A stretch of 64,000 nucleotides of DNA from Methylosinus trichosporium OB3b (GTDB taxonomy: Bacteria > Pseudomonadota > Alphaproteobacteria > Rhizobiales > Beijerinckiaceae), in contig NZ_CP023737.1 in assembly GCF_002752655.1 (NCBI RefSeq), forward strand, positions 1,054,001 to 1,118,000. The letters are read 5' to 3'. Below are positions 35,559-52,958 of the stretch, in pieces (positions within the stretch are counted from its first letter, which is position 1; each line of letters begins with the position of its first letter). The translations under genes and the position numbers were made by a program. The notes under the pieces were generated by a model that saw only the letters and a list, made by a program, of their open reading frames with translations, was not told the origin of the DNA and searched no databases.

Positions 35559-35611
35559 TTTGCTTGGTGAGCGCGATGGGACTCGAACCCATGACCCTCT
35601 GATTAAAAGTC
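35559..35611. other. Attachment site, left end (att direct repeat)
   Basis: A 53-base exact copy of 52906-52958, containing the 3' half of tRNA-Lys from the anticodon loop to CCA on the minus strand. Beyond 35611 the sequence diverges, so this is only a partial tRNA and marks the displaced end left by integration. Confidence 0.92.
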
Positions 35612-35727
35612 CCATTTTGGGACATTTCCCACGTTTTCCGCTTGTGGACGACGTTTACCGAACCCATTGCGAAATCGTGCTTTTCGTTCGATCATGATTT
35701 CCGACCTTTTCCCGGCATACCCCGCAC

Positions 35728-35773
35728 GGTGGCGACACGGTGGCGACTTTCTGGGGGCGCTGATGTGGCGACA
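35728..35773. promoter_or_regulatory. Putative integrase arm-type sites, left end
   Basis: GGTGGCGAC occurs at 35728-35736 and 35739-35747, and TGTGGCGACA near 35764-35773. The same 9-mer, in the same orientation and with the same 11-base spacing, occurs at the right end (52833-52852). Placement just inside both att repeats suggests integrase arm sites. Confidence 0.55.
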
Positions 35774-35799
35774 CGGGAAAGAATGTCGGGGGTTTGGGG

Positions 35800-37104
35800 A
35801 TGATCGTCAAGCTCACAAAGCGCGCCGTCGACACGCTGGCGCCGATCGCCAAGCCGTTCGTCGCCTATGACGCCGACCTTCCCGGCTTCGGCCTGCGCGT
35901 CATGCCGTCCGGAGTGAAATCCTTCGTCGTCGAATATCGCCCGAACGGCGGCGGGCGCGGCGTCGCCAAGCGGCGCGTCACCATCGGCAAGGTGGGAACG
36001 CTCACGCCAGAGCAGGCGCGGAAGTCCGCCGGCGAGCTGCTGGCGCGGGCGCGGCTCGGCGCCGATCCGGCGCAGGAGATCGCCGACCGGCGCAAGGCGC
36101 AGACGGTCGCGGCGCTCTGCGACGCCTTCGAGGTCGAGCATGTCGACGGCAAGCTCAAGCCTTCGACGCGAGCCTCCTACAAGGCGGCGCTCGCGCGGCT
36201 GAAGGATGCGCACGGCTCGGCGAAGGCCGAGTCCGTCACGCGCGCGCAAATCGCGACGCTGCATGCGAAGCTGGCGACGAGCCCCTACGTCGCCAATCGC
36301 GCGCTCTCGACCTGGGCGAAGCTGTTCGCCTGGGGCATGACGCGCAGCTTCGTTCCCAAGGGCGACAATCCGGCGCGCGAGATCGATCGCTATCGTGAGA
36401 GCAAGCGCGAGCGCTTCCTCACGGGCGACGAGCTCGGCCGGCTCGGCGCGGCGCTCGCCGAGGGCGAGACGGCCGGCCTGCCCTATGCGGTCGATGCGAC
36501 CAAGGCGAAGGCGAAGCACGCGCCGAAGCCGGAGAACCGGCTCGTCAAGCTCGACCCTTTCGCGGTCGCGGCGATTCGGCTGCTCATTCTCACCGGCGCG
36601 CGGCTTCGCGAGATCATGGACGCGCAATGGTCGCAGGTCGATTTCCAGCGTGGCATGTTGTTCCTGGCGGACAGCAAGACCGGCCGCAAGCCGATCTATC
36701 TCGGCGCCGCCGCCCTCGCCGTGCTGGCGGACCTGCCGCGCATAGAAGGCAATCCACATATCATCGCCGGCGCGAAGGACGGCGCGCCGCGCGCCGATTT
36801 GCAACGCCCATGGGCGGCGGTTCGGCAGGCCGCGGGCCTCGAGGGCGTGCGGCTCCACGATCTGCGCCACAGCTTCGCCAGCGTCGGCGCCGGCGCGTCG
36901 CTCGGCCTGCCGATCATCGGCAAGCTGCTCGGGCATATGCAGGCGGCGACCACAGAGCGCTATGCGCATCTGGACGCGGACCCGCTGCGCCGCGCCGCCG
37001 ACACGATCGGCGCGACGATCGCCGCGGCGCTGGACGGGAAGAAGGCGGGCGGCGCTGTCGTCGAGCCATTGAAGAAACGCCGATCGCGCGGCAAGACCGC
37101 GTGA
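35800..37104 (+). CDS. int: Tyrosine site-specific integrase of the element
   Basis: A 434-residue P4-like integrase. The N-terminal DUF4102-type domain reads FVAYDADLPGFGLRVMPSGV, a SAM-like core-binding domain follows at about 100-190, and the catalytic domain has Arg268 (TGARLREI), His353 and Arg356 (LHDLRHSFAS), His379 (LLGHMQ) and the nucleophile Tyr388 (TERYAHL). All five residues are present, so it should be functional. The ATG at 35800 is preferred over TTG 35794. It recombines at the tRNA-Lys gene, judged from the flanking 53-base repeats. Confidence 0.94.
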   Translation: MIVKLTKRAVDTLAPIAKPFVAYDADLPGFGLRVMPSGVKSFVVEYRPNGGGRGVAKRRVTIGKVGTLTPEQARKSAGELLARARLGADPAQEIADRRKAQTVAALCDAFEVEHVDGKLKPSTRASYKAALARLKDAHGSAKAESVTRAQIATLHAKLATSPYVANRALSTWAKLFAWGMTRSFVPKGDNPAREIDRYRESKRERFLTGDELGRLGAALAEGETAGLPYAVDATKAKAKHAPKPENRLVKLDPFAVAAIRLLILTGARLREIMDAQWSQVDFQRGMLFLADSKTGRKPIYLGAAALAVLADLPRIEGNPHIIAGAKDGAPRADLQRPWAAVRQAAGLEGVRLHDLRHSFASVGAGASLGLPIIGKLLGHMQAATTERYAHLDADPLRRAADTIGATIAAALDGKKAGGAVVEPLKKRRSRGKTA

Positions 37105-37140
37105 CGAGATTTCGCGACCACAATCAGTGTGAGAAGAACA

Positions 37141-38283
37141 ATGGACCCGAGGGACGCATGGGCGAAGTATGTCATGCTCGGCCTAAATAGCGACTCCTAT
37201 CCGACGCGCGAGGAATTCGAAGACTATCTCGCCATCAATGGTCCGGTGAGCTACTTCCTAGCCGAATGGATCGAAAAGACCGGCTGTCCTGATGAAGCGA
37301 TGCTGGCCTATCAGGACTGCCAATTCTGGGGACGTCGCGGCGCGGAGCCCTCTGTCGTTCAATTCGTAGAATACGGCGAATGGTTATATTTCGCACGCTA
37401 TGAATTTTTCGACAAATCGAGGAGATTCCAGATCCTCGATGTCGAAAGCTCGACGATCGTCGAGCGCGCGACGGGAGAGCGCTGGCGCGACGTGAGAGTC
37501 GTTCCGCTCCTCGAGGCTCCGGACATTGGAAGCATCGCGGCCGATAAGTCGCTCAAAGAGGCGTTCTATCGGTTCGTTCTTCATGAACCAATCGCGCTGT
37601 TTCATCTGCGGCAATATAGCCTGTTCTCTGACGATGGCGCGTTCGGCGATTTCGATATTTTGAAGCTGTTCGATGCGGACCGCACGATTTCATTCGAGAA
37701 TTGGCATATCGCCGAGCGCTGCATTGGACGGGCGCGCGACCTCGCGCATAATTTCGACTCGAGAAAAGGCTGCGTCTACAAGCGTATTTCCGCAGTGGTG
37801 TCGAATGCGAGTCTGTTCGTCAATCGATTGGCTCGGGGCATAATACTTTCTGACGGCTTTTGGCGTGGCGACACACGCGAGCGCTTGCCGATCGATCCGC
37901 AGCTCTGGACGCGCGCCGACGTGAAGCTCGACCTCCACAACGGCGATCTCGTGAACGCGGAATCGGGCGCGGTGGAATGGGCTTCGATCGTGCTGAGAGC
38001 GCCGCGAGATAGAGATGGTCCTACACCTCGCGCGAATGGCGCAACTGGTAATCGATCATCTGAGCTGCGCGAAGATCGAGCGCCCGCCGTCGAGATTACG
38101 TCGGAACACAATGGAAAAATCGCAACTATTGCAGAATGGCTTCGACAACGCTATCGGACCCGTCCCCCGATGAAGGCCAAAGAGCTGATGGCGCTCGTAA
38201 GCCATGAAATCCCCGAACTCGGAGAATTTCAAGACAGCTCGATGTATGCGGCGCTGAGTAAAGCCTTTCCGCGGCATAAATAG
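37141..38283 (+). CDS. Unknown cargo protein next to the integrase
   Basis: A 380-residue soluble protein of no recognised family. It starts MDPRDAWAKYVMLGLNSDSY. The N-terminal 300 residues show mixed alpha/beta character with many aromatic residues (FVEYGEWLYFARYEFFDKSR). After a Pro/Arg/Gly-rich linker (about 295-330) the last 50 residues (IAEWLRQRYRTRPPMKAKEL, SMYAALSKAF) resemble a winged-helix DNA- or protein-binding domain. Base composition is visibly more A/T-rich than the integrase. Genes in this position of integrase-bearing elements are often accessory or defence cargo; that is inference. Confidence 0.75.
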   Translation: MDPRDAWAKYVMLGLNSDSYPTREEFEDYLAINGPVSYFLAEWIEKTGCPDEAMLAYQDCQFWGRRGAEPSVVQFVEYGEWLYFARYEFFDKSRRFQILDVESSTIVERATGERWRDVRVVPLLEAPDIGSIAADKSLKEAFYRFVLHEPIALFHLRQYSLFSDDGAFGDFDILKLFDADRTISFENWHIAERCIGRARDLAHNFDSRKGCVYKRISAVVSNASLFVNRLARGIILSDGFWRGDTRERLPIDPQLWTRADVKLDLHNGDLVNAESGAVEWASIVLRAPRDRDGPTPRANGATGNRSSELREDRAPAVEITSEHNGKIATIAEWLRQRYRTRPPMKAKELMALVSHEIPELGEFQDSSMYAALSKAFPRHK

Positions 38284-38293
38284 CGTCGCAAAA

Positions 38294-38385: not shown

Positions 38386-38646
38386 ATGCATCCTACGCAA
38401 TATCTCCGCCGCAAGCAGGCCGGCGAATACCTCAAGACCCGTTACGGCTTCGGCTCCGAAAAGAGCCTCGCGAAGCTCGCGACAGTCGGCGGCGGTCCCG
38501 CCTTCCACAAGGCGGGCGTGGCCTGCCTCTATGAGCCTGCGGCGCTCGACGATTGGGCGCGATCGAAGATCGGCCCGGCGCATCGCTCGACCTCGGAATT
38601 CCCCTACCCGAAGACGGGCCGTCCCGCGCGCTCGGCGGCGGAGTGA
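38386..38646 (+). CDS. AlpA-like helix-turn-helix regulator / excisionase
   Basis: An 86-residue protein with a winged-HTH MerR/AlpA-type pattern: YLRRKQAGEYLKTRYGFGSE, then LATVGGGPAFHKAGVACLYE and a final helix LDDWARSKIG. Such proteins recruit or regulate integrases and act as excisionases. GAGGAATGACAC precedes the ATG. It is the first gene of a plus-strand run continuing through ssb and the replication gene. Confidence 0.75.
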   Translation: MHPTQYLRRKQAGEYLKTRYGFGSEKSLAKLATVGGGPAFHKAGVACLYEPAALDDWARSKIGPAHRSTSEFPYPKTGRPARSAAE

Positions 38647-38650: not shown

Positions 38651-39180
38651 ATGCACGATCTCCCGCAACCTCACGCCGACGAAAAAGCAGCGCGCCTCGC
38701 CGCGGCCAATGCGAAGCGTTCCGCGTCATTGCGCACGCGCTATGAAAAAATCCCGAGCTGCGCGAGGCGGTTCGCGCGCGAGCGCGGTCGATAAATTCGA
38801 CGCAGGAAATGCGCAAGAAGATTTCCGACGCAACGCGCCAGGCGATGGCGCGGCCGGACGTGCAAGACAAGCTTCGCGAGAACAGCTCGCCGGAGCGCAA
38901 GTCGCTGATCTCGCGCCGGACGCGGGAGGCGTTGGCGGCGCCCGAAATTCGGCAACGCATTAGCGACCGCACGCGCGAGGCGATGGCCCGGCCGGACGTG
39001 CAAGCGCGGATCGCGCAAGGCAAGGCCGCAGCGGCGCAGAAAAAGCAGGCCGACGGGGAGAAGCTCTCGGGCGAGCTGGTTGCGCTGCGCGCGGTGTGGG
39101 CAGCATCGGGCGCGCAGGCGCGGAACGCGTTCCTCGGCGAGATCAGCGCGGCGCTCCCGCCGAAATTCGAGATGACCTGA
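38651..39180 (+). pseudogene. Repeat-containing phage protein split by a frameshift in an A6 run
   Basis: Read from the ATG at 38651 the frame gives MHDLPQPHADEKAARLAAAN ... RTRYEK and then goes off into ICPSC-like nonsense, stopping at 38794. Shifting by minus one at the AAAAAA run near 38744 gives KNPELREAVRARARSINSTQ, which continues smoothly into the frame at 38809-39180. That part contains repeated units of the form ISxxTRxAMxRPDVQxK (NUMOD3-like), a helical C-terminus and a stop four bases before ssb. Either an A was lost or translation slips at the homopolymer. Function is unknown; a DNA-binding role is plausible. Confidence 0.7.
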
Positions 39181-39181: not shown

Positions 39182-39574
39182 ATGTCCGCGCTTGCTCTCA
39201 TTTCCGGAACGATCGGGCGGCGGCCAGAGCGCCGCACGGCGCGGACGGGCAAGCCGTTCGTCACCGCGTCGTTGCGTGCGGTCGGCGGCGGCAGCGTCAT
39301 GTGGTGGAGCGTAGTCGCCTTCGACGACGGGGCCGCGGCCGAGCTGCTGGCGCTCGTCGAAGGCGACGCCGTCGCGATTGGCGGCCCGATGAAAGCCGAG
39401 ATTTGGGCGCCGGCCGACGGCAAGGCGCGCGTCAATCTCTCCATTGTCGCGACGACGGTCGCGAGCCTGAAAGCCGCGCAACGGAAGTCGAAGGCGACGC
39501 CACGGGCGGCCGAGCGGAAGTCCGGAGAAGATCGAGGAACGCATAACGACCTCAACGACGATATGCCGTTCTGA
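39182..39574 (+). CDS. ssb: Single-stranded DNA-binding protein
   Basis: A 130-residue OB-fold protein: LALISGTIGRRPERRTARTG, then FVTASLRAVGGGSVMWWSVV, and the acidic tail LNDDMPF that SSBs use to bind partner proteins. The body is short and diverged from chromosomal SSB, as usual for phage versions. It starts one base after the previous gene's stop and precedes the replication gene by ten bases. Confidence 0.85.
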   Translation: MSALALISGTIGRRPERRTARTGKPFVTASLRAVGGGSVMWWSVVAFDDGAAAELLALVEGDAVAIGGPMKAEIWAPADGKARVNLSIVATTVASLKAAQRKSKATPRAAERKSGEDRGTHNDLNDDMPF

Positions 39575-39584: not shown

Positions 39585-40481
39585 ATGTCGTTCCACGTCA
39601 CCAAGGCGAAATGGCTGGAACAGATTGCGGAGGACGTCTGGCTTCTCGACAGCGCATGCCGCATTGCGATCGTGCTCGCGAAACACCTCAATTCACAAAG
39701 CGAGACCGCGTGGCCGAGCGTGGAACGACTTGCGAAAATAACCGGACAATCAGACAGAAACATTCGCAGAGTATTGAAAATGCTACATGATCGTGGACAC
39801 GTAAATGTGTCTATCGGCGGCGGACGTGCGCGTCCGAACGTCTATAGCATCGTCTTGAAGGGCCAGGGCGCCGCCCCCGTTCCAAGCTCGCCCGAACGCG
39901 GCTCGCGGCGCAAAAAACTCGGACAGACGTGTCCTATTAAAAACCCTGACACGTCTGTCCGCAAAACCCTGACACGTCTGTCAGGGGAACCTTTAGATAG
40001 GAACCTTCCCCCAAACGCCCCCGCAAAATCGGGCAGCGATCCTGCGCCCTCGGAGCCTGCTTTCGACGCATTCGAAGCCGTCTGGCCATGGGAGGCCAAC
40101 GAGTCGAGATCGGCCGGGAGGAAGGCATTCGATCTTCTTCCATCCGCAGCGGACAAGCGCCAAGCTATCGACGCCGCGCGCGCTGCGGCGAAGAAGGGCT
40201 TGGCGAGGGAGAAGCTCGGCCGCGCCTCGCGCTGGTTGCGTGGCCGCTGCTTCCAGAACATCGCGCCCTCGCCCCCGCCGACGCCGCGTCGAGATGCGCC
40301 AATCGTGACCGATCGGGGCGTCTTCATCGCCCTCAGCTCGCCGGAGTGGCAGGCATGGCGAGCGAAGGCGGGCGAGCATCTCGAAACGGTCAACACAGCT
40401 CATGGCATAGGTTGCTATCGGCCGTCGCAGTGGCCTCCCGACGTGGGCGGCGAAGCGCCCCACGAAGGAGGCGCACGATGA
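39585..40481 (+). CDS. Phage replication protein with winged-helix N-terminus (O-like)
   Basis: A 298-residue protein. The N-terminus is a helix_turn_helix_36-type winged helix (LLDSACRIAIVLAKHLNSQS, AWPSVERLAKITGQSDRNIR, RVLKMLHDRGHV). A linker contains NPDTSVRKTLTRLSGE, which is the translation of DNA repeats (see 39921-39986). The C-terminal part (FDAFEAVWPW, then FIALSSPEWQAWRAK) resembles lambda O/DnaT-like replication proteins. By analogy with lambda O, it may bind an origin lying in its own coding sequence. Its stop overlaps the next start (ATGA). Confidence 0.8.
   Translation: MSFHVTKAKWLEQIAEDVWLLDSACRIAIVLAKHLNSQSETAWPSVERLAKITGQSDRNIRRVLKMLHDRGHVNVSIGGGRARPNVYSIVLKGQGAAPVPSSPERGSRRKKLGQTCPIKNPDTSVRKTLTRLSGEPLDRNLPPNAPAKSGSDPAPSEPAFDAFEAVWPWEANESRSAGRKAFDLLPSAADKRQAIDAARAAAKKGLAREKLGRASRWLRGRCFQNIAPSPPPTPRRDAPIVTDRGVFIALSSPEWQAWRAKAGEHLETVNTAHGIGCYRPSQWPPDVGGEAPHEGGAR
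39921..39986. repeat. Iteron-like repeats inside the replication gene (possible origin)
   Basis: The 13-mer GACACGTCTGTCC or its close variant occurs three times: inverted at 39921-39933, direct at 39948-39960 and direct at 39971-39983 (last base differs). The last two lie within CCCTGACACGTCTGTC units 23 bases apart, and the third forms a palindrome with TGTCAGGG. An A/T-richer patch (CCTTTAGATAGG) follows. Arrays like this inside an initiator gene serve as origins in lambdoid phages. Confidence 0.65.
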
Positions 40482-40853
40482 GCTGGCGCAGGGAAGCCCG
40501 TCCGAAGCGGCGCGCGCAGCCGGTCGCGCAGGCGGCGCGCGCAGCCGGTCGCGCAGGCGGCGAAGCCATCGGCGTGGATCGCGCGCGGATCGCCGGAACA
40601 TGCCGCATGGCTCGCCTACGTCGCCGAGCGCGGCGCGACGCCGCTCGTCGAATATTTCTCCGCTCTCGACGGCAGCATCGGTTTCCGCCGCCGAAGCAAA
40701 TGGCCGCCGGGCGTCACTCCGCCGGCCGGCGATGAGGGGGGCGAGCCGATGACGCCCGCTGAATTGCGACCGCCGACCCGCCGGCCTCGCCCTCGGGTCC
40801 TCCCGGCGCCGGAACGCAATACGGGCAAACGGGGCGCGATTTTTCGCCAGTAG
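40478..40853 (+). pseudogene. Replication-associated protein frameshifted by a 25-bp tandem duplication
   Basis: From ATG 40478 the frame reads MSWRREARPKRRAQPVAQAA and then shifts because a 25-base unit is present twice (40511-40535 and 40536-40560). Removing one copy gives an uninterrupted product continuing AKPSAWIARGSPEHAAWLAY, VAERGATPLVEYFSALDG, FRRRSKWPPGV and ending NTGKRGAIFRQ at the TAG 40851-40853. The restored protein shares a C-terminal motif with the replication proteins at 39585 and 51846. Because tandem copies can recombine, the defect may be reversible. Confidence 0.8.
40511..40560. repeat. Perfect 25-bp tandem duplication
   Basis: Two adjacent identical 25-base units beginning CGCGCGCAGCCGG. 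The length is not a multiple of three, so it shifts the reading frame of the gene that contains it. Confidence 0.95.
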
Positions 40854-40869
40854 GGGTGTCGGGAAATAC

Positions 40870-40904: not shown

Positions 40905-40916
40905 AAGTGATTGGTG

Positions 40917-41285
40917 ATGAAAGGGAAAAGCCGGATGAGGCGCCATGATATGATCGGGGCGGCGGTCTGCGCGATCTATGCCGCGCTTGATCGCCATCAG
41001 GCCGAAATCAGGGGGCTCGTCGCTCATCTCGCCGAGGTCACGGGAGAACCGAGCGCCAACGGCGGCGCTGCGCAGTCGAGCCTCATACCTCTGAAGGATG
41101 CGGCGCAAGTCCTCGGTCAGCCCTATGACACCGTGCGGCAACGTGCGACGCGAGGCGGAGAGCTTGTTCGCTTTGGCCAACGCGCTTTCGTGCGATCCGC
41201 CTGGTTGGAGGCCGAAGTCGAAAATGTTCGGTCTGTTCGTTCGCTTGCCGAACAGCCGCCTGCTCGCGCAAAGTCCAGAAAGTGA
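40917..41285 (+). CDS. Small phage protein with helix-turn-helix-like C-terminal half
   Basis: A protein of about 122 residues. The second half (SLIPLKDAAQVLGQPYDTVR, QRATRGGELVRFGQRAFVR) has the shape of a MerR/AlpA-type DNA-binding domain that chooses between sites; the N-terminal half is helical. An internal ATG at 40935 with AAGGG ahead is an alternative start. It follows the GGTTKAC array, which may be its operator. Confidence 0.65.
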   Translation: MKGKSRMRRHDMIGAAVCAIYAALDRHQAEIRGLVAHLAEVTGEPSANGGAAQSSLIPLKDAAQVLGQPYDTVRQRATRGGELVRFGQRAFVRSAWLEAEVENVRSVRSLAEQPPARAKSRK

Positions 41286-41355: not shown

Positions 41356-42441
41356 ATGCTCGAAAAATTCTTTCCGAAGAAATCCACCGTCGAGGCGCTC
41401 GAGGGGGAGCTGGCGCAGATCGTTCAGCGTCAGGTTGGCTTGCGAACTCGGAGTGCAGCCGCGGTCGATGAGGCTAAGGCCGCTCGGAACACGCTACGTG
41501 AGCTGTTGATTGGAAGCGACAACGGTGAAGACCACGCTCTTGCCGACAACCGAGTTCTCAGGGCCGAGCGCAACGAAGCCGCCATCTGCGACGCCCTCGC
41601 CGCGTTGGACGCTCGCGAGCGGGAAATGCGCCGCCGCCTCGATGAAGCCCGAGCGGCCGAATGTCGCGAGAAGCGCGCGGATGAGATGGACGCGGCGGGA
41701 AGGGCGATCGAATTTGCGGCGCTTCGTCTCGAAAAGAGCGTCACCGCTCTTGCTGGCGAATTCTCCGAGATCATCGAGGCCATTCCGCCGGACTCACTGA
41801 CGCCGCGCCGCTACATCCCCCTTATCGGATTTCGCGACATCACGCCGACGACAGCCGCCGCCGCGGCGCTGATCGAGACGCTCTACGCGGCGATACCCGA
41901 GGCATTCGAGGCCGTGCTCGACGAGATTTCCGGCGCGGTCACGATTCGGGCGACGTTGATGATGCGGACGAAAGCGGGCGCGCTGTGCTCGGAGCTGCCG
42001 ATCAATGACGAAGGCGGGAATGCGCTGGTGGCGAGCGGCGCATTCCACGCGAACATCGTGGCGCCACTGCGCAAGCTCGCCGCCGATCTGCGCGACCCGC
42101 CTGCGCCGCCGAAGGCAACCATCGAGCCTGCGCCATTCCCCGAGGTCGATGTCGTCTTCACGAGCAACGTGGCTTGGCGCGACGATTTTGCACAAGAGAG
42201 GGTCGCCACAGCCTGGCTCGCGAAGGTTCCGAAGCCTGTCGCGGAGAAGGCTTTCGAGCTGGGGGTCGCATTGCGCGCAGGCACGCCCGAAGCGAGCGAA
42301 GCGCTGACGCGCGCGGCGATGCGCCCGAGCGGCGACCCGCGCTATCTCGCCACGCTCCCGACGCCGAAGACTGTCGACCTCGGCGTAAATCTCAAATCGC
42401 TCTACGACGCCGAGCGGGCCCGTCTGAACGGAGGCGTGTGA
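41356..42441 (+). CDS. Unknown coiled-coil phage protein
   Basis: A 361-residue protein starting MLEKFFPKKSTVEALEGELA. The first about 150 residues are predicted coiled-coil (QIVQRQVGLRTRSAAAVDEA, AREREMRRRLDEARAAECRE); the remainder has TAAAAALIETLYAAIPEAFE and a C-terminal segment I do not recognise. Gene position between early genes and the prohead protease gives no clear role. Its stop overlaps the next start by one base (TGATG), so the two are coupled. Confidence 0.7.
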   Translation: MLEKFFPKKSTVEALEGELAQIVQRQVGLRTRSAAAVDEAKAARNTLRELLIGSDNGEDHALADNRVLRAERNEAAICDALAALDAREREMRRRLDEARAAECREKRADEMDAAGRAIEFAALRLEKSVTALAGEFSEIIEAIPPDSLTPRRYIPLIGFRDITPTTAAAAALIETLYAAIPEAFEAVLDEISGAVTIRATLMMRTKAGALCSELPINDEGGNALVASGAFHANIVAPLRKLAADLRDPPAPPKATIEPAPFPEVDVVFTSNVAWRDDFAQERVATAWLAKVPKPVAEKAFELGVALRAGTPEASEALTRAAMRPSGDPRYLATLPTPKTVDLGVNLKSLYDAERARLNGGV

Positions 42442-43121
42442 TGGCCTCCTCGCCCTGCGCCTGCATCGGCCGCCGGTGGTTGCCCGTGACTCCGCGTCAG
42501 CACGCGCCGCACCACATGGGCGAGCCTGCATCGAACCATCGAGCGCCGCCGACATATCCCGAAATGGGCGGCGATCAGCAGAACGCCGCCGCGCATGAGG
42601 CCGGGCATGCAATCGCCGCGGTCGCATTCGGCCGCACCGTGCGAGCGCTGCGCATAGGCGACTATCCGCTCTGCGTCTCAATCCGCGCCGACGGCGCCAA
42701 GACACCGCGGCTCGGCCGATTGGTCGAGCTGATTTCGGGCTCGACCTGCGAAGGGATCGAAGGCCGACGCATGTTCCTCATGAGCGAAGGAACCATGCGA
42801 CAGAAGCTTGCGCAAGTCCGGGACGACGACCGCGGCTCTTGTGACCGCTGCCAGGAAGCGGCCCTCTTGGTCGCCGCCTTCGCCGGCGCAGCCGACGACG
42901 ACCTTGTGACGCTGTGGTCAGACGCGGCGTTCCTCGCCTTCCTACTTTTTCGACATCCGACGTTTCGCGCGTCGGCACGCGCGTTGTCGGTCATGCTCCG
43001 GCGACGGAAGGTGCTCTTCGGTGACGATGTTGCCGCGCTCATCGATGGACGCGCTCTTTTCATGGCCCGCGAGGACGTTGTGAGAAATTTCCCCCTTGGT
43101 AGGTTGGAGACCCTGCTATGA
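42441..43121 (+). CDS. Phage protein with a HEAGH zinc-protease-like motif
   Basis: A 226-residue protein whose NAAAHEAGHAIAAVAFGRTV segment (about residues 48-67) matches the HExxH zinc site of M41/FtsH-like peptidases, including the following hydrophobic residues. A second half with acidic residues that could supply the third ligand is less clear. Such free-standing HEAGH proteins occur in phage and plasmid regions and are of unknown role. It overlaps the prohead protease gene by four bases. Confidence 0.7.
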   Translation: MASSPCACIGRRWLPVTPRQHAPHHMGEPASNHRAPPTYPEMGGDQQNAAAHEAGHAIAAVAFGRTVRALRIGDYPLCVSIRADGAKTPRLGRLVELISGSTCEGIEGRRMFLMSEGTMRQKLAQVRDDDRGSCDRCQEAALLVAAFAGAADDDLVTLWSDAAFLAFLLFRHPTFRASARALSVMLRRRKVLFGDDVAALIDGRALFMAREDVVRNFPLGRLETLL

Positions 43122-43840: not shown

Positions 43841-43965
43841 CGGCCCCGCGGCGGGTCCTCCCGGGACCCGAAACCAATACGGGCAAGCGGGGCGCGTGGT
43901 GGGGCCAGCAAGGCGCGAGATTGGATAGGCTGAAATTTCAGCGGGAGGCTGAAGTTCAGGGCTGA
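43834..43965 (+). CDS. Tiny protein sharing a motif with the frameshifted replication gene
   Basis: A 43-residue frame from ATG 43834: RRVLPGPETNTGKRGAWWGQ and a charged tail. Its first half is similar to PRVLPAPERNTGKRGAIFRQ, the end of the gene at 40478-40853, and the DNA is similar over about 45 bases (40793 and 43852). It overlaps the prohead protease end by seven bases. It may be a real small gene or a duplicated fragment. Confidence 0.4.
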   Translation: MLTAPRRVLPGPETNTGKRGAWWGQQGARLDRLKFQREAEVQG

Positions 43966-43983
43966 AGTTCGGAGGGCGGGGCG

Positions 43984-46900
43984 ATGGCAGCGAGCGTTGG
44001 GATTCGTCTTCAGACGACGGGCGGCGAAGAGGTCGTGCGCGTGCTCGAGAAGATCAGCTCGGCCGCGGAGACGCAGTTCAAGAAAAGCGCGGCCGAGGCG
44101 CGCGCTTTCGGCCGGGCCGTGACCGACGTCGCCGCCGAGCTGCAGCCCGATCGGCTCGTCTCCGGCCTGTCGCAAGCCGCTGCGCCGCGCTGGTCGCAAA
44201 TGACGAGCAGAATGTCCCTGCTGCGTCCCGATACGGCGGCGACAAACGATGGTCGGGCGCAGATCGGAGGCTTTGCGCAACACCAATGGCTCAATCTCAA
44301 TCGCCAGGGGCAAGATGCGATCACTATGCTCGCGTCGGGCTCGTCGATGATGCAGGTTTTTTCGACACAGGCGGCCCAAGTCTATGACGTCTTCGCTTCG
44401 TCGAAGGGCGGCGCCGCCTCTGGCGTGAAGGCGTTCTCCTCTGCGGTCGCCGGCGCCGTCACTCCGACGCGCTTGCTCGGCGCGACCATCGTCGGGACGG
44501 CTGCGACTTCTGTCATCGCGCTCACCCGCTTCAAGTCGACGACGGATGAATTGCAGGCTTCGCTCGACGGCCTCGGCCGTTTCAGCGGCGTATCGCTGAC
44601 CGACGCGCGCGGCCTCGCCGAGAACGCATCGGCGGCGTCGGGCATGTCCCTGCGCTCGTCGTCGCATATCGTCGCCGGCGCGCTCGGCGCGGGGCTCGAC
44701 GCCAACACGGCGGGCGGCGTGGCGGCGCTGTCGAAACAATTCTCGATCAAGCTCGGCATGGGGCTCGACGATGCGGCGAAGGAGCTGACGGACGCTCTTG
44801 CCGATCCCGCGAAGGGCGCGGACGAGCTGGCGAAGCGCTATGGGCTCGTCACACTCGCGCAGGGGCGCCACATCGACGAGCTGACCAAGGTCGGCGATCG
44901 CAGCGGCGCGGCGGCGGAGCTGCTGCGCGATCTTCGCGGGGCGCTCGATCGGATCGCCGACCGGCGCTCGCCTTTCTCGCGCCTGATCGATCGCGTCGAG
45001 ACGGGCGCTAGCGACGTGCTCACCTCCTACGGCGAAGCGCTCGCGAATAATCCCGCGAACCGGACCGTCAATCGCCTGTTCGGCGTCCAGGGCAATGAAT
45101 CTGCTTCGACCGTCTTCGCGCGCATGCGCAGCGGCGAGCTGCAACGGCAGCAGGCCGCGAGGCAAGCCGACCTCGCCGGACAGGACGTTTACAGCATCGT
45201 GCGCGAGACGGCGCCGGACCTCTTCGCGCGACGCGATCTCGAGCAGCAGGTCGAGCGCTTCCAGCGCGCGCTCGGCCGCGAAGGCGTCGGCAAAGTGCTC
45301 GACGACCTCGGCGTCTCGGGCGACATGACGCGCGAAGCCGTCGAGCGGCTGAAGACGAGCCTCGAGATGTTGAAGACGCCGATGCAGCGCGTCGGCGAAG
45401 AGAATGCGCTGCGCATGCGCTCTATCGAGGCTGAAACGATCGGCCAGAAAGCGCAGCTCGCGGCCGAGCAGGCCTATCGCGCGGAACTCGACAATTCCAA
45501 GGATAAGCTCGCCGCGGCAATGGCGGCCGAAGGCGCGCGCAATGCGACCATCGCCGAAAGCACGCGGGTCATGCGCGAGCAGGCGAAGCAAGCCGAGCAG
45601 CGCGTCGAGCTCGCGGGACTGAAGCCCTATGAGCGCGCGAAGCGCGAGGCGGAGTTGACGCTGCGTGAGGACCTGCGAAAGGCGAACCTCGCGCCCGGCG
45701 CCGGCGCGCGGACGGACATCTACACCAAGCCCGCGATCGATGGCTTTGCGAGCGTTGGAACGGCGGCGACGCGGCTCGCCGATGTGCTGACGGGTTCCGC
45801 CGATCGCATCGGCCGGCTGATCTCGGCGCCCGAACAGCGAGCGGCGACGGCGAGCCCGACGCTACTTTTCGCGCGCAACGGCGGCGACTTCTATTCCGCT
45901 ATTCAGCGCGCCGAGGGAACCGACCGGTTCGGCGACCCCTACAACACGTCGCTGGGTTACATGCGCTCGCCGAAACCGCTCGTCGATATGACGATGAGCG
46001 AAAGTCTTGCCTGGGGCGATCAGGTCCGCCGTGCGCAAGGGCTCAACAGTTCCGCGAAGGGCGCGTTTCAAATCACCAACACGACGCAGCGCGACGCGAT
46101 GCGCGCGCTCGGCCTCGGCGCGAACGATATGTTCAACGCCGAAAATCAGAACCGCATGGCGGACTGGATTTTCAAGACGCAGGGCGTCGGCGCATGGGAG
46201 GGCTTCAAATCGCATCCTGCCGAGCGCGCGACCGCGCAGACGGCCGGGCTCGGCGCGCAATCGCGCCAGCTCGACGAGGCCGGCGAGGCGTGGCGGAAGT
46301 ATGATGCGACGGTCAAGGCGATCAATATCGAGCAGGTCGACACATGGCTGAAGGGCGAGAATGAATCGCTCGACATGCAGCGGCATGCGATCGATCTCTC
46401 TTCGAACTCCTGGGGGCTGAATGTCCAGCAGCTCGCTGCGGCCGAGGAGCGGCAGCGACTATTAAACGAAGCGCAGCAGCGCGGCATTCCGCTCACGGAG
46501 GAATTGACGCGCCGCGTCGGCGAGCTGTCGCAGAAGGCTGCGGAGAGTGCGCGCATCAATGAGCAGACGCGCAAGCAGATCGCCGAATTGGACTTCGCCC
46601 GGGACGCGACGACGAATGTCGCCAGCAGCGCCGCCATCGCCGCCGCGCATGGCGAGAATGTCGGTGATGCGCTGAAGTCGTCGCTGCGGCAGGTCGAAGA
46701 CGACCTCATTCGCAAGAGCGTCGGCAACATCGTCGGCGGGCTGCTCGGCGAGCGCGGCTCGTCGAATATGGGCCTCTTCGGCGATGTGCTCGGACTGAAC
46801 GGCAAGACCGGCCGTGACGTGCAAATGACGGCGAATAACGTCACGATCGGCGGCGCCGGCTCCGGCGGGCTCCTCGGCGGAGCGCTCAACAATGGGCGCT

Positions 46901-47901
46901 CCGGCGGCGGTTTGTTCGGGAACTTGCTCGACAGCGGCGGAAGCGGCGGCGGCTTGCTCAGCGGGCTGTTCGGCCCGGACCGAAACGCCAATTTCGCTGG
47001 GCAAGCCGCTGGCGCGATCGGGCCGTTTCAGCAGACGAATAGCGGAGGCGACCTGCTTCCAGGCCTAACCTCTGTTTTCGAGAAGGGCTTTGGAAGCCTG
47101 CTCGGCGGGTCGGGAAGCGGGGCCGGAACGATCACGATCAAGGGGAATGTCGTCAATGTCTCTGGCGGGAGTCTCAGCGGCCTCGGCGGCGGAGGCTCGG
47201 GCGGCTTCCTGTCCAACATCTTCGGCGGAAGCGGCGGCGGCTCCAGCGGCGGCGGCGATGTCCTGGGCGATGTCTTTTCCATCTTCAGCACGATCGGGGG
47301 CTTCTTTGGCTTCGCGAACGGCGGCGTCATGTCCGGCCGCGGCGTCGTGTCGCTGCAGCGCTATGAGAAGGGCGGCGTCGCCGATCGGCCGCAGCTCGCG
47401 CTCTTTGGCGAGGGCCGGCACAGGGAAGCCTATATCCCGATGCCCGATCCGCGCGGCCTGCATGTGGCTGTCGCCGCCGACGGGCGCGCGCATGTGACGC
47501 TGCCGGATGGGCGCGGCATTCCTGCGGTTCTCGAAGGCCGCGAGCGGCTGACGACGCCGGGGGGCAGCGGCGAAGGCCGCGCGACGCCGCTGCGGCTCAA
47601 TGCCTTCGCCGGCGGCGGCGTGATGACGAGCGCGGGCCCGGCGCCGCTCTCCTATGCCTCGGCAGCCGCGCCCTCCTCGCTGCCGCCGCTGCGCATGTCG
47701 TCTCCGGCGGCCGTCGCTGTGGCGAGCGGTGGCGGCGCGGGCGGCGAGCGCCGACCGGTCGAGGTCAAGATCATGGACGCGCGCGGCGGCAATCAGGTCG
47801 AGAAGGTCTATGCGACTCATGACGAGGTGATGCTGATGATCTCGGCGCGCGAGTCGCAGGTCGCCAAGGGGCAAGCCAATGCGGGCTTGAAGGGTTGGTG
47901 A
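43984..47901 (+). CDS. Phage tail tape-measure protein with lysozyme-like domain
   Basis: A 1305-residue protein. Residues 1-130 are helical (GIRLQTTGGEEVVRVLEKIS), about 130-260 hydrophobic and Gly/Ala-rich, about 260-600 helical with KSAAEARAFG-type repeats. Residues about 634-745 (FYSAIQRAEGTDRFGDPYNT, SSAKGAFQITNTTQRDAMRA, ADWIFKTQGVGAWEGF) resemble a lysozyme/transglycosylase domain used to pierce peptidoglycan. A Gly/Ser-rich region (about 945-1110) precedes the C-terminal FANGGVMSGRGVVSLQRYEK and ADRPQLALFGEGRHREAYIP, typical of tape measures. GGGGCG precedes the ATG. It is intact, whereas other tail genes are missing. Confidence 0.88.
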   Translation: MAASVGIRLQTTGGEEVVRVLEKISSAAETQFKKSAAEARAFGRAVTDVAAELQPDRLVSGLSQAAAPRWSQMTSRMSLLRPDTAATNDGRAQIGGFAQHQWLNLNRQGQDAITMLASGSSMMQVFSTQAAQVYDVFASSKGGAASGVKAFSSAVAGAVTPTRLLGATIVGTAATSVIALTRFKSTTDELQASLDGLGRFSGVSLTDARGLAENASAASGMSLRSSSHIVAGALGAGLDANTAGGVAALSKQFSIKLGMGLDDAAKELTDALADPAKGADELAKRYGLVTLAQGRHIDELTKVGDRSGAAAELLRDLRGALDRIADRRSPFSRLIDRVETGASDVLTSYGEALANNPANRTVNRLFGVQGNESASTVFARMRSGELQRQQAARQADLAGQDVYSIVRETAPDLFARRDLEQQVERFQRALGREGVGKVLDDLGVSGDMTREAVERLKTSLEMLKTPMQRVGEENALRMRSIEAETIGQKAQLAAEQAYRAELDNSKDKLAAAMAAEGARNATIAESTRVMREQAKQAEQRVELAGLKPYERAKREAELTLREDLRKANLAPGAGARTDIYTKPAIDGFASVGTAATRLADVLTGSADRIGRLISAPEQRAATASPTLLFARNGGDFYSAIQRAEGTDRFGDPYNTSLGYMRSPKPLVDMTMSESLAWGDQVRRAQGLNSSAKGAFQITNTTQRDAMRALGLGANDMFNAENQNRMADWIFKTQGVGAWEGFKSHPAERATAQTAGLGAQSRQLDEAGEAWRKYDATVKAINIEQVDTWLKGENESLDMQRHAIDLSSNSWGLNVQQLAAAEERQRLLNEAQQRGIPLTEELTRRVGELSQKAAESARINEQTRKQIAELDFARDATTNVASSAAIAAAHGENVGDALKSSLRQVEDDLIRKSVGNIVGGLLGERGSSNMGLFGDVLGLNGKTGRDVQMTANNVTIGGAGSGGLLGGALNNGRSGGGLFGNLLDSGGSGGGLLSGLFGPDRNANFAGQAAGAIGPFQQTNSGGDLLPGLTSVFEKGFGSLLGGSGSGAGTITIKGNVVNVSGGSLSGLGGGGSGGFLSNIFGGSGGGSSGGGDVLGDVFSIFSTIGGFFGFANGGVMSGRGVVSLQRYEKGGVADRPQLALFGEGRHREAYIPMPDPRGLHVAVAADGRAHVTLPDGRGIPAVLEGRERLTTPGGSGEGRATPLRLNAFAGGGVMTSAGPAPLSYASAAAPSSLPPLRMSSPAAVAVASGGGAGGERRPVEVKIMDARGGNQVEKVYATHDEVMLMISARESQVAKGQANAGLKGW

Positions 47902-47925: not shown

Positions 47926-48204
47926 ATGACGATGGACAATGACGACGATGAACGCTTCGCGTCTCTCTGGCTCATTTATGAGCGGGCCTTCCGCGCGGGC
48001 CATCTCGCCGCCGGCGCGACGCTGGACGCGGCCGAGGAGACGCTCGCCATCGCGCGGCCGTCGATGCTGCGCCTTTATCGCGGCGAGGATCCCGGAATTG
48101 TCATTTTCGATCTCGCGGCGGCGCTGCGAAAGGAAGTCGCCGCCGCCCGCGCCGATCGGATGCGCTTGCTCGAAAGCGCGTCCATGGGCGCCATCGCAAA
48201 CTGA
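47926..48204 (+). CDS. Small acidic phage protein of unknown function
   Basis: A 92-residue, mostly helical protein (DDDERFASLWLIYERAFRAG, LEESASMG end). It follows the tape measure by 24 bases with GAGAAAGGCA before the ATG. It could be a tail assembly partner, judged from position only. Confidence 0.6.
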   Translation: MTMDNDDDERFASLWLIYERAFRAGHLAAGATLDAAEETLAIARPSMLRLYRGEDPGIVIFDLAAALRKEVAAARADRMRLLESASMGAIAN

Positions 48205-48249: not shown

Positions 48250-48933
48250 ATGGAACGAGGTTCGTCCGTGGAGATAAAATTCGAGGAAGACCCCAAGGCG
48301 TCCATGAAAGGCACGTTGGACGCAATCCAGCTCGAGCTGGCGCGCGCCACGCGCCGCGCGACAGAGCGCTCGGGCCACGCTCTGAAGCTGCGTCTGCGCG
48401 AAAGAACGGACGCGGCGTTTCCGCCCAAGACGCGGCTCGCGCAAACATGGCGCGGCGACGTCTATCCGGACGCCTCGTCGACGACGCTCGAGCCAGCCTA
48501 TTACGTCTACACGAAAGCGCCGAAGATCATTCACGCGTTTGACAAAGGCGCGACGATCCGCGCCCGCAACGGCGTGTATCTCGCCATTCCCGCGCCTGCT
48601 GCGGGCGTCAGGCAATGGAATCGGGCGCTCACGCCCCGCGAATGGCAAGCGGCAACCGGAATCGAGCTGACCTTCGTTCCGCTCGCCGGCGGGCAACATG
48701 CGCTGCTCGTCGCTCACGCCTATTGGCAGAGGCAGGCGCCGAAATACCGGCACAGGCGAAAATTTTCGCCGATCCTCGCTCGCATCATGTCGCGCGGCCA
48801 GCGCTTCGTTCCCATTTTCTACTTGTCGAAGCAGACGACGCTGCGCAAGCGGCTCGACATCGAAGCCATCGCCCGCGAATTCGGCGGCTCGTTCCGCGAC
48901 AGCCTCGAGCGCGAGCTGGCGAAGATGGAATGA
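48250..48933 (+). CDS. DUF6441-like phage protein
   Basis: A 227-residue basic protein with LAQTWRGDVYPDASSTTLEP, YYVYTKAPKIIHAFDKGATI and FVPIFYLSKQTTLRKRLDIE, phrases that I associate with the DUF6441 family found in siphovirus-like tail regions (HK97 gp10-like fold is possible). The start may be ATG 48250 or GTG 48268. It is the last plus-strand gene of the structural part of the element. Confidence 0.7.
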   Translation: MERGSSVEIKFEEDPKASMKGTLDAIQLELARATRRATERSGHALKLRLRERTDAAFPPKTRLAQTWRGDVYPDASSTTLEPAYYVYTKAPKIIHAFDKGATIRARNGVYLAIPAPAAGVRQWNRALTPREWQAATGIELTFVPLAGGQHALLVAHAYWQRQAPKYRHRRKFSPILARIMSRGQRFVPIFYLSKQTTLRKRLDIEAIAREFGGSFRDSLERELAKME

Positions 48934-49289: not shown

Positions 49290-49520
49290 TCAGCCCGCGC
49301 GCGCGAGGCGGCGCGAGGGCGCCGGGACCGGGTGGCCGAGTTCTTCCGCCGCTTCGATCCAGGCGGCGACCGCATCGCGCGCATTGACGACCGCTTCCTC
49401 TGGCGTCTCCCCGTCCGACATGCAGCCGGGCAAGTCGGGGGCCGTCGCGACGAAACCGCCGCCATGTTCTGCGGACAGCGGCTCGACGATCAGGGGATAA
49501 TCCGTTGGCTGCAACGTCAT
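49290..49520 (-). CDS. hicB: HicB-family antitoxin without a HicA partner
   Basis: A 76-residue protein: YPLIVEPLSAEHGGGFVATA, PDLPGCMSDGETPEEAVVNA, RDAVAAWIEAAEELGHPVPA, which is the classic HicB N-terminal RNase H-like fold. The C-terminal DNA-binding domain is absent (a short form). No HicA-like frame lies next to it. It is the last gene of the minus-strand XRE operon. A protein of this type can act alone as a regulator. Confidence 0.85.
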   Translation of the reverse strand: MTLQPTDYPLIVEPLSAEHGGGFVATAPDLPGCMSDGETPEEAVVNARDAVAAWIEAAEELGHPVPAPSRRLARAG

Positions 49521-49561
49521 GGAGAGCCTTTCCGCCGTCGACCCGCGACGCGTCGGGGCCG

Positions 49562-49666
49562 TCAATGATTGTGGCTGCGCCGCTCTGCGGCGAGCGCGAC
49601 AATCCAGCCGAGAGCCGCGACGACGAGCGGCAGGATCACGAAAGCGAAAAGCTGTGTCCCGGTCAT
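49562..49666 (-). CDS. 34-residue single-helix membrane protein
   Basis: MTGTQLFAFVILPLVVAALG, then WIVALAAERRSHNH: a short N-terminus, one membrane helix and a basic, His-containing tail. The ATG (49666) overlaps the stop of the upstream membrane gene by four bases (ATGA), which argues that it is translated. Proteins of this shape (MTGxQxFxFxILP...) recur after XRE genes in alphaproteobacteria, to my memory. Function unknown. Confidence 0.6.
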   Translation of the reverse strand: MTGTQLFAFVILPLVVAALGWIVALAAERRSHNH

Positions 49667-49896
49667 TCTTTCAATCCCCCGAGAACGCGTCTCGCGGCCA
49701 AATGTAGCGCCGCCGCGGCGAAAAGCCAAATGGCGGCGCCGGCGACGATTGTCGGAAGAGGGACGCCCGAGGCTGCATTGACGTTGTAGAAAGCGGCGGC
49801 GACCGGCGCGAGCACGCCGACGGTGAACGACGAGCCCGCCGCTGTGTTCAGCGCCGCCGCCAAGAGCTTCACGCGCTCGTTGTGAACGAGGCTCAT
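49663..49896 (-). CDS. Small two-helix membrane protein in the repressor operon
   Basis: A 77-residue protein: MSLVHNERVKLLAAALNTAA, a first helix (SFTVGVLAPVAAAFYNV), a short loop and a second helix (TIVAGAAIWLFAAAALHLAA) with basic C-terminus. It overlaps the XRE gene by four bases upstream and the 34-residue gene by four bases downstream. A role in superinfection exclusion or holin-like activity is conceivable but unproven. Confidence 0.7.
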   Translation of the reverse strand: MSLVHNERVKLLAAALNTAAGSSFTVGVLAPVAAAFYNVNAASGVPLPTIVAGAAIWLFAAAALHLAARRVLGGLKE

Positions 49897-50129
49897 GGGT
49901 TCTTCCGCAGTCTCACGCCCGGACCTTCCCCATTCGCTTCGACAAAAATCACGCCGGCCCCCTCTAGCGCGGCGCGGATCGCCGATTGTGTGGATTGATA
50001 GGGCTCCCGCTTTCCCGACTCGAAATCAGCGATCGTCGCGCGACCGACCTTCGATTGCTTGGCGAGTTCGTCTTGTGACCACCCGATCAGGCCACGGGCG
50101 GCTCTAAGCTGTCCGGCCGTGATGCTCAT
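49893..50129 (-). CDS. XRE-family helix-turn-helix repressor
   Basis: A 78-residue protein: TAGQLRAARGLIGWSQDELA, KQSKVGRATIADFESGKREP, the Cro/CI-type helix-turn-helix, followed by a short C-terminal strand region (GVIFVEANGEGPGVRLR). It is divergent from a plus-strand run that starts at 50259, with a large palindrome between them, the arrangement of a lysogeny switch. It heads a four-gene operon with two membrane proteins and HicB. Confidence 0.88.
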   Translation of the reverse strand: MSITAGQLRAARGLIGWSQDELAKQSKVGRATIADFESGKREPYQSTQSAIRAALEGAGVIFVEANGEGPGVRLRKNP

Positions 50130-50136
50130 CGAACCT

Positions 50137-50258: not shown

Positions 50259-50381
50259 ATGCCCTGGAAAATCGCAGCAACCCTCTACTTTCTCATGCCC
50301 TTCGCGCTCGTCGCGATTCCCTTCCTCGTCGTCGAGACGGCCCGCGTCGTCGCCACAATCCGCGCCGAGCGCTGCCGATGA
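50259..50381 (+). CDS. 40-residue single-helix membrane protein
   Basis: MPWKIAATLYFLMPFALVAI, then PFLVVETARVVATIRAERCR: one membrane helix with a basic tail. Its stop overlaps the start of the next gene (ATGA), so translation is likely. It is the first gene of a coupled four-gene set (50259-51812). Confidence 0.55.
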   Translation: MPWKIAATLYFLMPFALVAIPFLVVETARVVATIRAERCR

Positions 50382-51812: not shown

Positions 51813-51845
51813 GCGCGCCGGCGACGCTATCGGGAGATTTGCCGC

Positions 51846-52697
51846 ATGCAGTTTCATCGCTGGTTCAAAGCGCAGGGCGCGGACTTCCTGGACATGCGTC
51901 TTCGGAAGCTCCCAGCAGGGCTGTTCAAGCATCTCTACTTCCTGCGCTGCCTCGCCGCCTGCAACGGTGGCGCGCTGCCGCCGGTCGCGGAAATCGCCTT
52001 TCTGCTCGGCTCGAGCACTGCCGCCGTCGAGCGCCGACTCGCGGCCCTGCGCGAGGCGGGCTTGATCGCCGAGGCCGGCGGCGAGCTGCGGATCGCCGGC
52101 GACGAGGGCGCGGCCGAGGCTCCCGAGGTCCTGTCCGGAGCCGAGCGAACGCGCCGCTGGCGCGACCGGCGCGGCGCCAGCGGTGACGGGCCGCGTGACG
52201 AGGCCGTGACGCTTGGTGACGGCATAGAGAAAGATCAAGAGGGAGAGACAGACTCCCCGCGCGTTCCGCGCGGTGCGGCGGTCTATGAGCGTTTTGACGA
52301 ATTCTTCGAAACCTTCCCGGCTCGCGACGAGGAAAGCCCGAGAGAGCCGGCGCTCGCGGCATGGCGCCGGGCCGTGGTCGACGACGGCGCCGACCAAGCG
52401 CAGCTCATTCGCGCGGCGAAGGCCTATGCGGCGGCGATCGCGAGCCGTGAGCGGCGTTTCATCTGCTCGCCGGCGCGATGGCTGTCCGAGGCCCGCTGGC
52501 GCGCCAGCGGGCCGCCGCAGGCCGCGGAAGCCGCGCCAGAGCCGGCGGGCGTGTGGATCGAGGTCGGCAAGCCAGGGTGGGAAGAATGGTCGGCATGGTG
52601 GCGCGCGACCAAGAGACGAAGCCCGCCGATCGACAAGCTCGGCGGCTGGCGGTTCCCCTCCGCACTCCCTCCCGAGGCGCCGCAGCTCGCTGCATGA
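51846..52697 (+). CDS. Second replication-like protein with winged-helix N-terminus
   Basis: A 283-residue protein. The N-terminus (MQFHRWFKAQGADFLDMRLR, LPPVAEIAFLLGSSTAAVER, RLAALREAGLIAE) resembles a DUF1376/winged-helix domain of phage replication proteins. The C-terminus (PAGVWIEVGKPGWEEWSAWW, KRRSPPIDKLGGWRFPSALP) shares the WI-x-x-GxPxW-x-x-W motif with the replication protein at 39585 and the broken gene at 40478. It is the last gene before the right attachment site. Confidence 0.75.
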   Translation: MQFHRWFKAQGADFLDMRLRKLPAGLFKHLYFLRCLAACNGGALPPVAEIAFLLGSSTAAVERRLAALREAGLIAEAGGELRIAGDEGAAEAPEVLSGAERTRRWRDRRGASGDGPRDEAVTLGDGIEKDQEGETDSPRVPRGAAVYERFDEFFETFPARDEESPREPALAAWRRAVVDDGADQAQLIRAAKAYAAAIASRERRFICSPARWLSEARWRASGPPQAAEAAPEPAGVWIEVGKPGWEEWSAWWRATKRRSPPIDKLGGWRFPSALPPEAPQLAA

Positions 52698-52712
52698 CGG
52701 CGAGCCTCGCGC

Positions 52713-52809
52713 GACAAAAGTCGCACGCTGCGACTTTTGTCCGGTCAAAATGGTCGCACCCTGCGACCATTTCCGAACGTGCTTCACGGTCCCGCCGCGG
52801 GACCGTGAA
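52713..52809. repeat. Three consecutive perfect hairpins next to the right att site
   Basis: Hairpin 1: GACAAAAGTCGCA, CGC, TGCGACTTTTGTC (13 bp). Hairpin 2: AAATGGTCGCA, CCC, TGCGACCATTT (11 bp). Hairpin 3: TTCACGGTCCC, GCCGC, GGGACCGTGAA (11 bp). The first two share the GTCGCA-NNN-TGCGAC centre. They fill the gap after the last gene and before the arm sites. They could act as terminators, a structured RNA, or a single-strand replication or protein-binding site. Confidence 0.8.
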
Positions 52810-52832
52810 AGCCTGTCCGACGCGCGTCCACC

Positions 52833-52852
52833 GGTGGCGACATGGTGGCGAT
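52833..52852. promoter_or_regulatory. Putative integrase arm-type sites, right end
   Basis: GGTGGCGAC at 52833-52841 and GGTGGCGAT at 52844-52852, 11 bases apart, as at the left end (35728-35747). They lie about 54 bases inside the right att repeat. Confidence 0.55.
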
Positions 52853-52905
52853 TTTTAGCTTTCAGAAGGTCGGCTAGACTGGGAAAATCGCCTCTAAGCC
52901 TTTGT

Positions 52906-52958
52906 TTTGCTTGGTGAGCGCGATGGGACTCGAACCCATGACCCTCTGATTAAAAGTC
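52906..52958. other. Attachment site, right end (att direct repeat)
   Basis: A 53-base exact copy of 35559-35611, overlapping the tRNA-Lys gene from the anticodon loop to its 3' end plus a few downstream bases. Integration here leaves the tRNA gene whole. Confidence 0.92.

Follow-up and report, generated by a model that had tools for sequence, protein, structure and literature searches.

A tRNA-Lys element of Methylosinus trichosporium OB3b with its own tape measure protein, prohead protease, and two cos-type sites: a probable phage satellite

A 17.3-kb integrated element lies in a 64,000-nt stretch of the genome of the methanotroph Methylosinus trichosporium OB3b (contig NZ_CP023737.1, positions 1,054,001 to 1,118,000; this whole stretch is called the window, and positions count from its first nucleotide). 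Exact 53-bp direct repeats enclose the element, one of them overlapping the 3' part of the gene for tRNA-Lys (ttt), its integration target (Table 1). The element is probably a phage satellite of the cos (cohesive-end site) type: most likely it parasitizes phages and travels in hybrid particles, and is not a virus that has died. A satellite is favored over a decaying prophage because cos-type sites are present without a recognized terminase gene, because the order of the genes is not one that deletion could have produced, and because there exist sister elements, bounded by att repeats, in which no capsid gene was found either. The att borders, the intact genes of integration, replication, and repression, the two cos-type sites, and the gene order are all direct observations.

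An earlier reading, made from the sequence alone, had described an intact integrase, a single-stranded DNA-binding protein (SSB), a repressor, a whole tape measure protein (TMP) of 1305 residues, and a prohead protease between exact att repeats at tRNA-Lys, and each of these was borne out by profile searches and by the position of the tRNA gene. It had also reported that genes for terminase, portal, and capsid were not seen, and the searches made here found none. No large terminase, portal, major capsid, or tail tube protein was matched by a profile among the 20 called proteins of the element, except that the protease hit its own head-protease profiles. When the hallmark proteins of Rhodobacter phage RcKemmy and of G244, G176, G503, G073, G093, and G128 (handles beginning with G or L stand for the genomes, contigs, and loci compared) were used as tblastn queries, the only matches were to the protease, the lysozyme-like region of the TMP, a DUF6441 protein, and a protein labeled u227. 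Adding head proteins from another four regions of the OB3b genome to the queries revealed no terminase, portal, or capsid gene in the element.

Two features did not figure in the sequence-only reading: DUF6441, a third virion gene, and a pair of cos-like sites. The sites were sought with a hidden Markov model (HMM) built from 14 phage sites, none of them from the window. The training sites had a GGGTCCTYCC-like core near terminase genes, and to these were added L202, where the core precedes another gene (labeled ParB-like by eye), and the joined ends of RcKemmy; a core in L021, far from a terminase gene, was left out. In the 820 kb searched with this phage-only model, cos A ranked first and cos B second (scores in Table 1), and the best score in 100 random 64-kb windows having the dinucleotide frequencies of the window was 12.5 bits. 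Training sites left out one at a time scored 5.8-36.5 bits, four of the 14 below 10 (5.8-9.9), i.e., under the best random window. The model matched 640-795 bp upstream of the large terminase gene, on the same strand, in 17 of 40 phage-type loci (counting matches that scored 6 bits or more and lay no farther than 1.2 kb before that gene). Twelve of the 17 were training sites, and the other five were L031 (29.0 bits), L028 (35.7, the same site as in the training locus L027), L085 (14.4), L160 (12.4), and L084 (6.1). In PBb001, a match precedes the gene adjoining the terminase gene.

Cos B is tied to phage by homology as well. The stretch at 43849-43969 aligns with phage contig L020 over 121 bp without gaps (80% identity, E 1e-24), and a second copy lies at 40782-40855. 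The copy in L020 is found about 740 bp upstream of the large terminase gene. Mismatches between cos B and L020 number 9, 8, and 7 at the three codon positions, an evenness which argues that the stretch is non-coding. The two sites may stem from two phage types or from one duplication: cos A carries a second box also seen in G244, G090, and G476, and cos B is of the L020 type. Their placement also resembles that in phages. In ten phages (G244, G090, G176, G476, G093, L199, L200, L198, L024, and L027), the core comes 104-163 bp before the gene at the small-terminase position, taking gene starts from the gene caller, and in the element, the distance is 116-140 bp from cos A to u124 and 131 bp from cos B to the TMP gene. 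Finally, the deposited records of three Rhodobacter phages, RcKemmy, RcKvothe, and RcBaka, terminate inside the core, and for phage S1, the record stops some 40 nt past the start of a similar core. (In RcKemmy and S1, the core is 2-3 kb upstream of the small terminase gene, and that of RcKemmy precedes an annotated ParB-like gene.) From these record ends and from its position, the motif is read as cos.

The short motif by itself is no part of this evidence, which rests on the HMM, the match to L020, and the positions. A looser cos pattern has exactly two matches in the 5.18-Mb OB3b genome, both in the element and on the same strand, but over 149 genomes it gave 18 matches against 22 for a reversed control and so is not enriched. 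The count of the cos 12-mer, 2 against 0.00 expected, is post hoc, the 12-mer having been taken from the window.

Perhaps the conserved leader that contains the core is instead, or besides, a promoter or regulatory leader under the control of a helper phage, wiring the satellite to the helper's late expression, much as P4 is wired to the late expression of P2. Each copy of the leader directly precedes one late-type gene run (u124-u351-u227-protease in the one case, TMP-u92-DUF6441 in the other), and the homology of copy B with L020 continues beyond the core to take in a GCTGAAATTTCAGC palindrome and also GGCTGAAGTT repeats. The ends of phage records, however, fall within the most conserved core, as one would expect of a cos site and not of a promoter. 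This reading is unlikely; it would, in any event, be compatible with a satellite.

The three virion genes of the element have their kin in full phages. The protease retains the conserved His and Ser motifs in an alignment of nine proteases. That it might be a truncated protease-capsid fusion was considered and ruled out: four of seven extra loci fetched (the full phages G244, G176, G476, and G503) have a stand-alone protease of 207-224 aa between portal and a separate capsid gene. Of the remaining three, G301 has a protease and a capsid-like gene but no portal on its short contig, and contig ends interrupt both G417 and G268. The TMP carries a lysozyme-like region at residues ~636-751, and the stretch of the G128 TMP to which this region corresponds matches an endolysin profile. 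Its relatives lie within the tail gene clusters of IMG/VR contigs L193 (56% in the best segment) and L196 (34%), which are read as siphophages since no sheath gene was seen; a search of IMG/VR with the single TMP sequence found no contig, and one with an alignment found 13. The 92-aa gene adjoining that of the TMP, in the place where a PLE-like satellite would have a tail assembly chaperone, matched no profile. DUF6441, encoded by the second gene after the TMP gene, is 36% identical over 168 aa to gp12 of RcKemmy, annotated "minor tail protein"; its structural model is poor (mean pLDDT 52.8) and had no match in PDB at E ≤ 0.001. IMG/VR contigs L020, L189, L193, and L198, kin of the protease, DUF6441, TMP, and cos B of the element, all bear one metagenome number, 3300035168.

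The order of these genes bears on whether the element is simply what remains of a siphophage prophage, one that lost terminase, portal, capsid, and tube, had the rest rearranged, and kept protease, TMP, DUF6441, and cos as remnants. Among 28 loci examined, DUF6441 is upstream of the tail tube gene in all 16 that show both and upstream of the TMP gene in all 10 that show both. In the element, the order is the opposite, with protease and TMP genes separated by 143 bp and DUF6441 after them, and deletion alone therefore cannot give the arrangement. There is something to be said for decay: relatives of all three virion genes occur together in one phage (contig L198, 19 kb), a 25-bp duplication breaks one gene of the element, and the OB3b genome holds another prophage, with a broken terminase, that clearly has decayed (1680-1690k). 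Against it, besides the lost collinearity, are the presence of two cos-type sites, neither before a recognized terminase gene; the integrity of the 1305-codon TMP gene and of the protease, integrase, and Rep genes; and the recurrence of the u351-u227-protease block, twice, in another genus, where its open reading frames are intact and diverged. Taken together, these make a decaying prophage quite an unlikely account.

That recurrent block belongs to a group of elements akin to this one. Relatives of u351 are rare: they occur in three of 149 genomes of the family and two of 397 of the order (OB3b included), there are two on genome contigs, both from one Methylocystaceae metagenome-assembled genome (MAG), and IMG/VR has none. 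The structural model of u351 (mean pLDDT 69.5, pTM 0.34) matched no viral structure at E ≤ 0.001, and a role as scaffold would be a guess. Its neighbor u227 adjoins it in the element, in G093, and in both elements of G057. The last, an uncultured Methylocystaceae MAG from the family of the host, has two elements in which a helix-turn-helix (HTH) gene, u351, u227, and protease are followed by a small terminase gene (TerS). Between the pair, dN/dS is 0.22-0.46 for four genes (between G057 and the window, synonymous sites are near saturation).

Other sister elements carry different parts of the virion. In G061, of the same family, 55-bp att repeats bound 19.5 kb at tRNA-Arg, with TerS (phrog_57), protease, and a TMP-like protein. 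In G128, of the genus of the host, 51-bp repeats bound 15.7 kb at tRNA-Arg, with large terminase (TerL), a TMP-like protein, and directly after it a tail-completion protein (phrog_222). OB3b itself has a 15.0-kb element (C1:537445-552525; L163, L164) between exact 38-bp repeats at tRNA-Arg, with a portal and a TerL 63% identical to that of G128; neither capsid nor tail genes were found in it. No capsid gene was found by PHROG profiles or tblastn in any of these three elements, where the PHROG scans took in 18 of the 27 called genes of G061, 19 of the 21 of G128, and 15 of the 20 of the OB3b element. The sister elements, as judged from sequence, are mixtures of virion parts.

Three further loci may be mentioned alongside. 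In G093 (C5:386478-405000; L095, L096), a cos-HTH-HTH-u351-u227 module sits inside a prophage, with capsid genes to one side and TMP genes to the other, and holds its own second copy of the cos of that prophage. It is possibly a satellite caught inside its helper. (The u351 relative there, 25% identical, was found only by looking beside the G093 TMP.) A region of the OB3b genome at C1:1150400-1162700 (L161) resembles a capsid-forming phage-inducible chromosomal island (cf-PICI), with XRE, helicase, SSB, portal (phrog_12), a protease-capsid fusion (phrog_10/80), TerS (phrog_83), and TerL, but no tail gene among its called genes; tRNA-Val follows. The clearly decayed OB3b prophage mentioned above (C1:1680000-1690000; L168, L169) has portal, protease-capsid fusion, and terminase in pieces.

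Several observations weigh against a satellite. Some decay there is: the 25-bp tandem duplication (40507-40556) frameshifts a gene beside cos A. The protein u124, at the position of small terminases, has no match to a TerS profile, only weak ones to excisionase and MerR families of PHROG. Of the 30 terminase loci whose upstream sequence reaches 800 bp or more, 14 give no match to the cos model. Among the sister elements, significant matches to it are confined to G093, a composite locus, and there are none in G061, G057, G128, or the other OB3b regions; in G057, a very weak match (E 19) falls in the expected place, where the sequence is conserved from one of its elements to the other. An empty att site was not seen: the gene on the left flank is present in 10 of 10 genomes of the genus (OB3b included), and in 0 of the 9 others did a match reach the right flank within 1.5 kb. 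Neither excision nor transfer has been observed and no helper is known; mobility is inferred. Lastly, a cos site might survive in the remnant of a prophage, too.

How might such a satellite work? Upon infection by a helper phage, or upon the induction of one, the element would excise and replicate. The helper's terminase would then cut and package it from cos A, cos B, or both into the helper's heads. The u351-u227-protease module may adjust the assembly or maturation of those heads, and the element's own TMP and DUF6441 may take the place of two tail proteins of the helper, its tail ruler being one of them, to give chimeric tails like those of the phage-inducible chromosomal island-like elements (PLEs) of Vibrio. 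The sequence-only reading had offered a choice between an unusual satellite that remodels tails and a decaying prophage; the satellite is favored by cos sites, gene order, and sister elements, and the remodeling is suggested by gene content and by the precedent of the Vibrio PLEs. A broader proposal, still tentative and somewhat less probable than its contrary, is that Alphaproteobacteria host a family of satellites self-assembled from chosen parts of helpers, each with a cos site, a subunit of terminase, or both, together with at least one protein of the virion (protease, TMP, tail-completion protein, portal). In the present case, two cos sites of different phage types could permit packaging by two kinds of helper, and its own protease and TMP could lead to chimeric heads and tails.

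Very improbably, the element is a defense island that is never transferred, its TMP, protease, and DUF6441 acting as decoys that spoil the tail and head assembly of invaders: excerpts of two studies do describe satellite- and prophage-borne defenses aimed at tail assembly (Tai, PMC11364771; Rta in PLE11, PMC12987554), but a decoy would have no need of cos sites or of structural proteins kept intact at full length, and PADLOC, run on ten of the element's proteins, recognized no defense protein, only HTH-type matches of the XRE repressor.

Table 1. Features of the tRNA-Lys element (positions in the window)
Feature	Position	Strand	Evidence
att repeat, integrase side	35559..35611	.	exact 53-bp direct repeat
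Tyrosine integrase, 434 aa	35800..37104	+	PF00589, PF13356, phrog_1; intact
Protein without family, 379 aa	37144..38283	+	open reading frame and coding score; no Pfam, PHROG, or PADLOC match
Small protein, 86 aa, at alpA position (alpA label by eye)	38386..38646	+	no Pfam or PHROG match
Unassigned protein, 123 aa, internal 69-nt repeat (D2)	38809..39180	+	open reading frame
SSB	39182..39574	+	PF00436 E 1e-6
Rep-like protein 1	39585..40481	+	phrog_270 E 1.5e-12, PF13730
Frameshifted gene overlapping cos A	40478..40852	+	perfect 25-bp tandem duplication 40507-40556 (D4)
cos site A	40790..40856	+	phage cos HMM E 4.4e-9, 35.8 bits
u124, HTH-like, at small-terminase position of phages	40911..41285	+	start 116-140 bp after cos A core
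u351, long helices then small C-terminal domain	41356..42441	+	5 proteins (window's included) in 5.8-billion set
u227, HEAGH motif (zinc-protease-like, by eye)	42438..43121	+	M50B below cut-off, E 0.003
Stand-alone prohead protease (S78)	43118..43840	+	PF04586; phrog_4523 E 2e-54
cos site B	43849..43969 (HMM match 43849-43912)	+	HMM E 2.4e-6, 27.2 bits; L020 homology
TMP, 1305 aa, intact	43984..47901	+	PF06791 E 5e-27
Protein without family, 92 aa, beside TMP (u92)	47926..48204	+	no profile or PADLOC match
DUF6441, minor tail type protein	48250..48933	+	PF20039 E 3e-28
HicB-like antitoxin	49290..49565	-	PF15919
XRE repressor	49893..50129	-	PF01381
Protein without family, 216 aa	50375..51025	+	open reading frame and coding score; no profile or PADLOC match
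Unassigned protein, 210 aa	51022..51654	+	47-aa match to G128 element protein
Rep-like protein 2	51846..52697	+	phrog_270 E 5e-15
att repeat overlapping 3' part of tRNA gene	52906..52958	.	exact 53-bp direct repeat
tRNA-Lys (ttt), integration target	52912..52987	-	ARAGORN

The remaining genes of the element are listed in Table 1. The 86-aa open reading frame at the alpA position matches nothing in Pfam or PHROG; the alpA label, like the HTH labels on small proteins, was read by eye. The XRE repressor has relatives of 35-53% identity (blastp) in G061, G128, both G057 elements, and the 15-kb element of OB3b, and none was seen in G093. A pair of 23-bp tandem repeats (39940-39985) within the first Rep-like gene may represent iterons of an origin. 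Elsewhere in OB3b, a short region (C1:2760415-2768300; L171) is headed by an integrase that shares 74% identity with the one in the element; the region ends near tRNA-Lys (ctt), and blastp recognized no virion gene in it. Outside the element, at 34931-34994, lies a perfect palindrome with 26-bp arms, resembling repetitive extragenic palindromic sequences, with dozens of copies in this and related genomes.

Among known satellites, the closest parallel is with the PLEs. According to excerpts of a 2026 study (PMC12987554), Vibrio PLEs build chimeric tails and have genes of their own for a TMP, a tail assembly chaperone, and BhuB; PLE11 builds such tails while using phage capsid proteins; and putative tmp genes are reported in other satellites, some cf-PICIs among them. 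The element likewise encodes its own TMP plus another tail protein, but its set is TMP, DUF6441, and prohead protease, its host and type of helper differ, and it is known from its genes alone. Since satellites with their own TMP are already known from the Vibrio PLEs, the element is not new in kind. Excerpts of a second source (PMC10690885) describe cos-based hijacking by P4, some Staphylococcus aureus pathogenicity islands (SaPIs), and proteobacterial PICIs, which the element would resemble as an integrated element with a cos site recognized by a phage terminase, if its sites do act as cos. There, capsids are redirected by scaffolds and packaging by TerS or Rpp, and not by a set like the TMP and protease found here; unlike P4, moreover, the element has no P4-type alpha primase-helicase among the PHROG matches of its 20 proteins. 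With cf-PICIs it has in common that a satellite holds part of the virion genes, but of the capsid, portal, protease, connectors, terminases, and HNH protein that those encode according to the same excerpts (PMC10690885), it shares only the protease. Phages of the RcKemmy, L198, and L020 types possess relatives of its protease, DUF6441, TMP, and cos; in them, unlike in the element, genes for head, packaging, and tail occur side by side, DUF6441 lies upstream of the tube gene, and cos lies upstream of the terminase genes (about 2 kb away in RcKemmy). Among the matches listed from the open-licence literature, none dealt with elements of this kind in Alphaproteobacteria or methanotrophs.

If the satellite reading is true, a second, unrelated lineage of hosts would have a satellite that combines TMP, minor tail protein, prohead protease, and two cos sites, and this would point to the hijacking of tails by satellites as a general phenomenon. 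The element would also offer a tractable case in which to ask whether the protease or the TMP of a satellite alters the size of heads or tails. Metagenome 3300035168 is a place to look for helpers, and the cos motif provides a sequence handle by which both helpers and satellites may be found in Alphaproteobacteria.

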